The notes under the pieces: generated by a model | What the model saw: the letters and a program-made list of their open reading frames with translations, nothing else | What the model was told of the DNA's origin: nothing | The model's database searches: none | Shown: positions 20,362 through 40,240 of the stretch, piece after piece | Position numbering within the stretch: position 1 is the stretch's first letter | Layout of the letters: each line of letters starts with the position of its first letter | DNA from: Halobacteriales archaeon QS_1_68_20 | GTDB taxonomy: Archaea; Halobacteriota; Halobacteria; Halobacteriales; PXRE01 | DNA length: 64,000 nt | Direction of reading: 5' to 3' | Assembly (NCBI GenBank): GCA_003021085.1 | Contig: PXRE01000040.1 | Location: forward strand, 62,001 to 126,000 | Made by a program: the position numbers and the translations under genes

Positions 20362-20800
20362 TCACTCCCGGTCGGCGAAGAAGCCGAACTCGTCGCCCGA
20401 CCGGTCGACGTACTCCTCCAGTCTGGCGTTGACGGCGTGGGCCAGGTCGTCCAGTTCCTCCTCGACGCGCTCGGCGGCGTGGTCGTCGTGGTCGCCGGGC
20501 AGCGAGCCGACGGTCGGCGAGCGATAGCCGACGTCGCCGCTGGCCGGTTCCCAGTAGAAGTCCAGCGCCTCGACCAGTCCGGCCTCGCGGGCCGCCTCGA
20601 ACTCCACCTCGTCGAGGTCGGTGTGGGCCGCCCACTCGTCGAAGCCGTTCGCCCAGGCGCCCTCTTCGAGGAACGACGCCAGTTCCTCGCGGCGCTGGTC
20701 GTCGCTGGGATCGTCCAGTTCCTCGACGGCCTCGTAGTCCCCCGGTTGCTGTGGCCCCCCCCAGCGGCGGCGGGTTCGGGGGTTCGACGTCCAGTCCCAT
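20362..20800 (-). pseudogene. small acidic protein gene, frameshifted at a G8 tract
   Basis: Good coding sequence (GDYEAVEELDDPSDDQRREELASFLEEGAWANGFDEW ... FGFFADRE, split here for length) runs from about 20745 to the stop at 20362. A start codon ATG at 20800 gives MGLDVEPPNPPPLGG. The two parts are in different frames, joined across eight consecutive G bases (minus strand; C8 at 20755-20762 on the plus strand). Seven G would restore one frame of about 146 codons. The locus is thus either phase-variable, mutated or mis-sequenced. Downstream of the tract a GTG at 20607 could still give an 81-residue product. The protein family is not recognised; residues are strongly acidic. Confidence 0.6.
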
Positions 20801-20873
20801 CCGACTGCTGGTGTACGTTGTGTTGCTGAACGTCATGCGGCGGCGGGTCCGGGGGTTCGACGTCCAGTCCCAT
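20764..20873 (-). repeat. direct repeat duplicating the start of the frameshifted gene
   Basis: The 37 bases at 20764-20800 and 20837-20873 differ at one position. Each contains an ATG and codes for MGLDVEPP(N/D)PPP. The offset is 73 bases, not a multiple of three, so the upstream copy reads a nonsense frame. This is a local duplication of the 5' end of the gene. Confidence 0.8.
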
Positions 20874-20957: not shown

Positions 20958-21131
20958 TCGCAGAAAGACGCCGGGACTGGGATTTGAACCCGGAGGAAGA
21001 CGGTCCGGGCTTCCGTTGTGTCTCCGACGGACGGGTCCGGGCTGCGACTTCCAGGGGTTCAAATCCCAGCGGCCGCTTCGCTCGTCGCGTCCGTTCCTCG
21101 CAGAAAGACGCCGGGACTGGGATTTGAACCC
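20958..21131 (-). repeat. duplicated 3' end of tRNA-Ser, 34 bases, 140 bases apart
   Basis: Positions 20958-20991 and 21098-21131 are identical over 34 bases. The right copy covers the T-arm, acceptor 3' strand and 3' flank of the tRNA-Ser gene; the left copy has only these parts. A third T-arm-like sequence (GGGTTCAAATCCCA) lies in the opposite orientation at 21055-21068. Duplication of a tRNA 3' end is the usual footprint of tRNA-targeting integrative elements; here only 106 bases separate the copies, so it would be a scar (inference). Confidence 0.75.
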
Positions 21132-21190
21132 AGAACCCCGTAAGGGGACACGCTTTCCAGGCGTGCGCTTTGCCATTCGGCCATCCCGGC
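21110..21190 (-). tRNA. tRNA-Ser (anticodon GGA)
   Basis: An 81-base class-II tRNA folds with acceptor strands GCCGGGA and TCCCGGC, anticodon stem CACGC/GCGTG around loop CTGGAAA (anticodon GGA, reading UCC/UCU), a long variable arm with CCCC/GGGG stem, and the T-arm CTGGGTTCAAATCCCAG. CCA is not encoded. Its 3' end is duplicated nearby at 20958-20991. Confidence 0.95.
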
Positions 21191-21219
21191 ACGCACGATT
21201 TCGTACGCCGGTCCGGCGC

Positions 21220-21946: not shown

Positions 21947-22039
21947 GTCTTGAAGAAAGCGGGGAGAGGCGGTCGAATCGGGCTTATAAGTCGTTTCTCG
22001 CGTGTTCTCTGTCGGTGGTAACTTGGACGGCAACACGCA

Positions 22040-22256
22040 GAAAGCCCGCGGTCCCTTTCAGTCCCACCCGACAGCTCGCCGCAAACGAGTAACGCAGGCG
22101 GTTGGGGAGGGGAAGGCCTGCTGTGGGCGGGAATGAAAGGGCCGGGCGGCTTCGGGAACCCGGACGACGCAAGCACCGCAATGAAGAAGCGAGCGAAGCG
22201 AGCCACTGAATGAGGCGCGCAGCGAGGCCCGGGACCGAAGCCGCCCGAGGGCTTTC
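22040..22256 (+). ncRNA. candidate structured RNA with three-way junction
   Basis: No protein-like frame is convincing in 21950-22334, but the sequence pairs strongly. An outer helix joins GAAAGCCC (22040-22047) with GGGCTTTC (22249-22256). A second helix joins 22053-22075 with 22120-22141 (CCCTTTCA with TGAAAGGG at its base). A third joins GGGCGGCTTCGG (22144-22155) with CCGAAGCCGCCC (22235-22246), 12 perfect pairs. Together they make a three-way junction. The loop of helix two carries the motif CGAGTAACGCAGGCGGTTGG, shared with repeats near 37.6 and 40.2 kb. A TATA box sits about 90 bases upstream on the plus strand. It lacks the RNase P and SRP signature sequences. Identity unknown; it could also be a mobile-element-derived end. 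Confidence 0.6.
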
Positions 22257-22366
22257 GACGTAGTGGCAGAGGAAGACGCATTGGAGCATGATCCGGACCC
22301 CCCAATCGTCCAGCCAACGATCCCCATAGCAGACCTATTTTAGTCGCCCCGACCGTACGCCGCCAC

Positions 22367-22981
22367 ATGGGACTGTTCGACCGCCTCAGGGGCGTGCTCG
22401 GCACGGCGGCGGAGGCGGACGCCACCCGGGACGCCGACCCGGAGGACCTGTTCGGCATGAGCACCGGCTACGTCACGATGGCGGCGGACCTCGACTACGA
22501 CTCCGCGGGCGAGGCGGCGCTGTGTTTCTCCGGGGTCGACAGCACCGACTTCAAGGACACCGTCGAGGAGGTCCAGGACATCCTCGACGTCGGCAAGGTC
22601 GAGACCGGGACCGACGCCTCCCTGTACGAGGACAGCAAGGGCTACGAGTGGGTCGTCCTCGAAGACGACGACGTCGAGGACCTGGTCACCTCCATCCACT
22701 TCGCCGCGGATACGTTCATCGAACGCGGCTACGGCTCCCGCCTGCTGGCCGCGCTGTTCGCCTTCGAGCGGCCCGACCGGGCGGACCGCTACGTCTACTG
22801 GATCTACTCCTTCCGGCGCGGCGCGTACTACCCCTTCGCGCCGGAACCCGACCACGAACGGGACTCCCGGACGGAGTTCAAACTCCAGAGCGTCCTCGAC
22901 GGCGAACTCGACCTCGAAGACGACAAGGAGTACTGGTACCCGCTGTGGCCCGACCGACCGGACCGCTTCCCCTGGGAGTGA
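22367..22981 (+). CDS. pspAB: PspA-associated protein PspAB
   Basis: The 204-residue product matches, from memory, the haloarchaeal PspA-associated protein PspAB: MGLFDRLRGVLGT start, GMSTGYVTMAADLDY, and the C-terminal KEYWYPLWPDRPDRFPWE. It is soluble and acidic, with no membrane segment or obvious catalytic motif. The family is thought to work with PspA in membrane-stress response; no pspA is in this window. A TATA-like CTATTTTAG at 22335-22343 lies about 25 bases before the ATG, so the transcript is probably leaderless and separate from the RNA region upstream. Confidence 0.8.
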   Translation: MGLFDRLRGVLGTAAEADATRDADPEDLFGMSTGYVTMAADLDYDSAGEAALCFSGVDSTDFKDTVEEVQDILDVGKVETGTDASLYEDSKGYEWVVLEDDDVEDLVTSIHFAADTFIERGYGSRLLAALFAFERPDRADRYVYWIYSFRRGAYYPFAPEPDHERDSRTEFKLQSVLDGELDLEDDKEYWYPLWPDRPDRFPWE

Positions 22982-37547: not shown

Positions 37548-37601
37548 ACGGGATCGAGCATCCGTCGTTGCAGGCGGTTTCGCGCTGTCTGTCTGCTCTC
37601 G

Positions 37602-37745
37602 GCGCGCGCAACGCGCGCGAGGGACGAGTAACGCAACGGAGTGAGTAACGCAGTCGGTTGGGGAGGGCGTGGCCATCCCTAGGTCAAGTGGTCGCTAGTG
37701 TTCCCAGTTGGAACGAGAACGTTAGCGGCATGCAAAGTCTAGGGT
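37602..37745 (+). repeat. interspersed palindromic repeat element, copy in plus orientation
   Basis: Non-coding sequence with, in order: hairpin GCGCGCG-CAA-CGCGCGC (37602-37618), GAGGGACGAG, a GTGAGTAACGCAGTCGG stretch, GGTTGGGGAGGGCGTGGCCA, and a nested hairpin closed by CCCTAG (37677-37682) and CTAGGG (37739-37744). The same order of motifs occurs in inverted orientation near 40.1-40.24 kb. The remaining gap to htpX (37746-37936) shows no gene. Confidence 0.7.
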
Positions 37746-37936
37746 CACCCTCACACCGCCCCAGCCGCTTCGTTTCGGCCTGGGTTCGCGGCTCCGCCGC
37801 TCACCCGGACGCTCCACTCGGCCCTCGCACGCTTTCGGTTTGCCGCCTCACGGCGCTCGGCACGCTCACCCGCGCACGCCACCCCAGGGAAGTAGAGGCG
37901 GCCGAAAACGGACCCCAAAACCCACACTCCGCGATC

Positions 37937-39992: not shown

Positions 39993-40240
39993 TCCCGGCG
40001 CGCGCGAGCAACGCGCGCGAGGGTCCGGGTGAGGCGCGGCGGCCAGGCGGTCGGCCGCCGCGCCGAACCCCACGGCTGGGGAGGGGTGAGGTCGACCCCT
40101 AGTTGCCCGGTTGCCGCTCGTCTGGACGGTCAAATGCGGACGGCAGAAACGCGCATGCCGGGCGACTAGGGGTGGCCACGCCCTCCCCAACCGACTGCGG
40201 TGCTCACTTCGCTGCGCTCCTCGTCCCTCGCGCGCTATCG
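39993..40240. repeat. head-to-head pair of palindromic repeat elements
   Basis: In the 545-base gap 39893-40437, a plus-oriented element (GGCGCGCGCGAGCAACGCG, then GGCTGGGGAGGGGTGAGG, CCCCTAG) faces a minus-oriented one related to that at 37.6 kb. Together they form a large imperfect palindrome at 40073-40193, with perfect-but-one 15-base arms at 40096-40110 and 40158-40172. A separate perfect 12-base hairpin (GGCGCGGCGGCC, 8-base loop) lies at 40033-40064. No gene is seen in this gap. Confidence 0.75.

Follow-up and report, generated by a model that had tools for sequence, protein, structure and literature searches.

A worn copy of a dispersed, probably mobile, two-armed hairpin repeat of haloarchaea lies beside ridA in Halobacteriales archaeon QS_1_68_20

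Beside ridA, the genome of Halobacteriales archaeon QS_1_68_20 carries a strongly foldable stretch of DNA, and the question is whether this stretch, as a first-pass annotation proposed for positions 22040-22256, encodes a structured RNA built around a three-way junction. The window, i.e. the whole stretch of DNA that was analysed, is 64,000 nucleotides long. Its genes were called with a home-made caller, which finds none from ridA (PF01042, 21444-21824) to the divergent PspAB gene (PF22742) at 22367, with radA beyond, in agreement with the initial statement that no protein is encoded here. Two 37-nt direct repeats also lie beside a tRNA-Ser gene (21107-21191, minus strand), with sites at 20764-20873, 20958-20994 and 21098-21134; one of them duplicates the 3' end of the tRNA (CGCCGGGACTGGGATTTGAACCC), as attachment-site duplications do.

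The three helices of that proposal are all present and in nested order. Helix 1 is made of eight perfect pairs between GAAAGCCC (22040-22047) and GGGCTTTC (22249-22256); the long imperfect helix joins CCCTTTCAGTCCCACC (22053-22068) to GGCGGGAATGAAAGGG (22126-22141), with further inner pairs; and the helix reported as 12 perfect pairs is indeed perfect, its length being 13 (22143-22155 with 22235-22247). The motif that had been noted as repeated elsewhere is a CGAGTAACGCA..GGTTGGGGAGG module, which is also present at about 37626-37665 of the window. Neither RNase P RNA nor SRP RNA is matched, as had been expected, and an Rfam search of the element at the curated threshold returned no family at all. 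The minimum free energy of 22040-22256 is -113.7 kcal/mol on the plus strand (z -4.9 against shuffles) and -122.9 kcal/mol on the minus strand (z -7.9), and on both strands every shuffle folds worse than the native sequence. Among 217-mers of the same genome, 6 of the 159 intergenic and 12 of the 185 genic ones are equally stable; the raw stability of the element alone is not unusual for a GC-rich genome, and therefore it is comparative evidence that decides.

The genome itself gives the first part of this evidence, because the sequence is present in many copies, which rules out a lone non-coding RNA gene at ridA. The assembly is a 3.39-Mb draft, 81.5% complete, of an organism that is the sole member of its family among the genomes drawn. 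In it, blastn with the region gives 67 similar places and the hairpin arms number at least 37; a leader motif (TTGGNCNGCAACANSCAGAAAGCCC) has 112 matches, against none for the reversed control. In 398 kb of this genome, all 22 of 22 clusters are intergenic. A TATA-like TTATAA does lie at 21984-21989 (plus strand), as had been noted, but it is a local feature and not one of the family: TATA-like hexamers are found upstream of 2 of 36 copies in this genome and in 1 of 36 control stretches.

In each arm an A motif (..CAACAGCCAGAAAGCCCC) and a B motif (GGCCCCTTTCAGTCCCACCC) flank a stem of some 13 pairs, which encloses a conserved inner hairpin (CTCGCTGCGC .. GTGCTTACGTCG). The register is constant in 100 of 118 arms: CTTTC is the partner of GAAAG, at the next three positions C stands opposite C, and the variable stem follows. 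The complete form, known from Haloarcula, is a mirror-symmetric element of about 250 bp (mostly 233-268 bp, measured up to 359 bp) with the architecture A-hairpin-B-centre-B'-hairpin'-A', in which a short centre joins two arms in head-to-head orientation. Its inverted ends are 16 bp long (ACAGCCAGAAAGCCCC), with conservation falling sharply outside them; no excess of flanking direct repeats, such as a target duplication would leave, is seen at the Haloarcula elements, and complete elements carry no gene. The genome of QS_1_68_20 contains mostly half-elements, composed of A (often tandem, about 50 bp), hairpin, B and then the CCTCCCCAGCC module with further hairpins, and in a few arms of the family the inner hairpin is reversed. 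Tandem A-unit arrays have a genome-specific period of 50, 75 or 45 bp (L158, L160, L034, L040, L170), and the tandem repeats meet at about base ten of the stem; CRISPR arrays were ruled out by inspection, the tandem A units being diverged, fully repetitive and spacer-free. The B motif of one element (L162, about 2170-2470, G284) holds another small inverted-repeat insertion, with ends GCTCTGTAGGATCGCT..AGCGATCCTACAGAGC.

Read against this anatomy, the copy beside ridA, which extends over about 21998-22275, is one worn member of the dispersed family and a composite, made of a left arm that has lost its hairpin body and a complete right arm. On the plus strand, a left A unit, i.e. a leader of about 50 bp that is tandem in other copies, occupies 21998-22047, with a conserved part, TTGGACGGCAACACGCAGAAAGCCC, at 22023-22047 and the core at 22040-22047. 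In the left arm (22029-22067, plus strand; covariance model R1, 30.3 bits, E 7e-5) the A motif is joined almost directly to the B motif at 22053-22068, which is conserved across genera. By sequence comparison, the centre (22069-22125) contains at 22086-22112 the sequence CGAGTAACGCAGGCGGTTGGGGAGGGG, which is the CCTCCCCAGCC/CTGCGTTACTCG module of other copies in reverse. The right arm is complete on the minus strand (22127-22267; R1, 79.2 bits, E 9.1e-16) and has its conserved inner hairpin between the two sides of the variable stem, with A' and B' outside; its B' motif (CCCTTTCATTCCCGCC on the minus strand) lies at 22126-22141. The right A' unit (..TACGTCGAAAGCCC on the minus strand) lies at 22249-22275 and is the inverted counterpart to the left A core. 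The two A cores pair as helix 1 and the two B motifs as the long imperfect helix, and the stem of the right arm accounts for the 13 perfect pairs, so that the helices are real but the single RNA junction dissolves into two inverted arms, one of them without its hairpin. Copies of the CCTCCCCAGCC/CTGCGTTACTCG module without A or B motifs are also present in the window at 37590-37680, about 37750-37880 and about 40074-40190, and they are probably related repeat fragments, corresponding to the second half of half-elements.

The family is widespread and patchy. A covariance model of the arm detects it in 52 of the 89 Halobacteriales genomes sampled, which come from 26 of 40 genera, and finds no arm in the genomes sampled from several other families; the 14 related Haloarcula have 4 to 18 model matches each. 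Copy numbers per genome are lower bounds, because at most 40 candidates were scored in each and many genomes come near that number. The 17-base A-core pattern alone matches in 26 of 394 genomes, and a pattern scan of genome contigs mixes chance bacterial matches with real haloarchaeal ones. Haloarchaeal plasmids carry similar copies, those checked having no annotated feature beneath them, and none was found in phages. Plasmids and second replicons of Haloarcula have a divergent single arm (..CCTTGAAAGCCCCACGCC..) upstream of a SOSS B-type (ssDNA-binding) protein gene (L318 about 815-940, L316, L320, L340), in the neighbourhood of type IV secretion genes; several genomes have two to three copies of this arm, which may be the mark of a site for transfer or replication. 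The Haloarcula matches of about 51 bits, for which a location in rRNA leaders had been considered, are sited upstream of this gene and are plasmid-borne in annotated records, and the rRNA-leader assignment was dropped.

Shared loci in Haloarcula reveal that the elements differ in presence, orientation and arms. One spacer holds an insert in five species that is absent from nine, its length being 336-450 bp with the insert (where measured) and 56-74 bp without it; the inserted tract reaches about 45-65 bp beyond the A core on either side, and the A cores may therefore not be exact element ends. A second locus also varies, and in H. japonica only, an element together with a vapBC-like cassette sits where 12 relatives have a plain junction. 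This vapBC-like toxin-antitoxin pair (L123, 6905-7815), surrounded by an inverted repeat of about 35 bp (CTTAACAGTTGTTGGTAATACGGTTTCATTATTCAGA), directly adjoins the element, and both sit in the junction between a gene and hisI. A further locus has the whole element inverted, from one end exactly to the other, in one species (G116) with respect to G085 and G155, both flanks being kept. At a third locus left and right stems differ among three species and look permuted, and a fourth species has lost its hairpins. The absence of an element could also reflect deletion, and inversion in place could be due to rare homologous or microhomology recombination.

On these grounds we consider it likely that the feature is a copy, short of one hairpin body, of a haloarchaeal mobile DNA element which consists of two inverted hairpin arms and is non-coding and non-autonomous. 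A mobile or recombining element without a transposase is the best reading because of the copy number, the inverted ends, the absence of a gene or of a shared promoter, gain and loss between species, and inversion in place. The same observations do not support a distinct RNA gene tied to the ridA locus, and the element comes close to being the end of a transposon, an identity that the first-pass annotation had itself named as incompatible with its proposal. A recombinase or transposase provided in trans would act on the inverted A ends, presumably while each arm forms a single-stranded or cruciform hairpin. The stems would drift and yet stay complementary through palindrome correction, in which one side is the template for re-copying its partner, or alternatively through exchange of whole arms between copies, or else through selection on the fold. 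No autonomous parent or transposase was found between inverted A ends in the about 0.8 Mb scanned; the genes lying between such ends encode a thioredoxin, a DnaJ/ferredoxin protein, a thioesterase and a methionine sulfoxide reductase.

The alternative that survives best, which we nevertheless hold to be unlikely, is a structured RNA, either a multi-copy small RNA or a UTR element read from B to A toward the adjacent gene, kept by selection on its fold, with dispersal as a secondary event. Covariation of the arms is strong, and compensatory changes were the test set beforehand: in a consensus of 27 pairs built on 26 diverse arms, 96.6% of consensus pairs are paired and 17 of the 27 are changed on both sides, with a covariation score of 0.509 against 0.129 for shuffled and 0.04-0.07 for slid alignments. 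The inner loop and the ends are also conserved across families. At one locus common to Haloarcula species (flanks about 87-93% identical), the fifth stem pair stays paired in the orthologues, being G-C in two species and T-A or C-G in others, and half-changed forms are absent. Among 105 distinct stems, 1307 of 1367 pairs (95.6%) are Watson-Crick; the A-to-B strand has 3 G-U pairs and 21 A-C pairs, the latter being G-U on the other strand, a bias toward the B-to-A strand (binomial p 3e-4) that fits an RNA read in this direction and could also be caused by transcription-linked mutation. Half-elements of QS_1_68_20 point the same way: their A side faces gene starts in 36 cases against 8 and, between tandem genes, B-to-A is the sense direction in 20 against 6. 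Some RNA-level constraint may thus also act.

Against selection for RNA, wobble pairs are just about 1.8% of stem pairs, which seems few for a selected RNA, and together with the double changes their scarcity suggests copying or arm exchange as the means of restoring complementarity. Moreover, the copies share no promoter, the inner hairpin is reversed in some arms, whole elements are flipped in place or missing from relatives, and the symmetric Haloarcula elements have no orientation bias (29 facing a start, 24 a stop). This unbiased placement also rules out promoter-proximal targeting, the bias being confined to the half-elements of QS_1_68_20.

A bidirectional transcription terminator, or a hairpin for RNA 3'-end processing, is very improbable: the copies are intergenic and GAAAG before and CTTTC after the strong stem give an A-tract followed by a T-tract on both strands, but the T-tract is only three long, the types of gap that hold elements roughly track their availability with few convergent gaps, and inverted ends, inversion, gain and loss would be left unexplained. 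Chance folding of GC-rich intergenic DNA, to which the 4-6% of other 217-mers of the genome with a matching raw folding energy might point, is already refuted by the multiple copies, the motifs conserved across haloarchaeal families and the strong covariation.

Among described systems the closest class to this mobile hairpin repeat is that of the small mobile repeats of Haloquadratum walsbyi (SMR-A and SMR-B), which are about 110 bp long, with inverted ends, no target duplication, no transposase and a mobilisation called "enigmatic" (PMC3119063). They are defined by inverted terminal repeats unrelated to a known transposon and by being too short for a transposase, and SMR-A is inserted into palindromes of IS605-type transposons or of PATEs, the palindrome-associated transposable elements (PMC3119063). 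Like them, the hairpin repeat is short, non-coding, present in tens of copies and without a transposase, has prominent inverted ends, and at 233-359 bp shows no target duplication and is too short to encode a transposase; unlike SMRs as described, it is about 250 bp long with two arms, variable stems and inversion in place, and its 16-bp end does not seem tied to IS605 or PATE palindromes. MITEs are likewise short, non-coding and dispersed, with inverted ends, whereas the hairpin repeat lacks a target duplication, unless its true ends lie further out, and no parent transposon with its ends was met in the scanned DNA. With PATEs it shares haloarchaeal hosts, palindromes near the ends, and the lack of coding capacity and of target duplication, but PATEs by definition have no inverted terminal repeats and the hairpin repeat has 16-bp ones.

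Outside the haloarchaea, REP/BIME elements, associated with RAYT (Y1) transposases, are multi-copy intergenic hairpins, often in inverted pairs and with covarying stems. The hairpin repeat resembles them in all these respects and has different end motifs; no match to a Y1 transposase (PF01797) was found in the 81.5%-complete draft of QS_1_68_20, where controls were detected, and a REP/RAYT origin was rejected. In integron attC sites conserved complementary ends surround a stem of variable sequence and conserved fold, and recombination takes place on folded single strands; the hairpin repeat may be compared with them as a functional analogy only, since it has conserved ends and a variable stem that keeps its fold, but other core motifs and no cassette array. 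In openly licensed PMC papers only the SMR, PATE and MITE classes of Haloquadratum came up as candidate families and none of the papers prints the motifs of the repeat, so that the family is apparently undescribed, a description in subscription journals being possible.

The family occurs in most sampled haloarchaeal genera with up to tens of arms per genome, yet it has neither an Rfam family nor an annotated feature on the plasmids that were inspected, and it can be studied in culture through the copies assigned to Haloarcula hispanica and H. marismortui. It is also a warning, because covariation, the usual proof of a structured RNA, can arise from mobile DNA hairpins, and a natural experiment in which palindromes keep their complementarity while their sequence turns over. 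A bolder proposal, which we regard as quite unlikely, is that the A and B motifs are the sites of a dedicated haloarchaeal recombination system working on folded single-stranded hairpins, which would invert elements, swap arms and renew stems on their own template. If this were true, palindromes throughout the class would stay paired while their sequence turns over, and the arm upstream of the SOSS B-type gene near the type IV secretion cluster could be a site in its working context.
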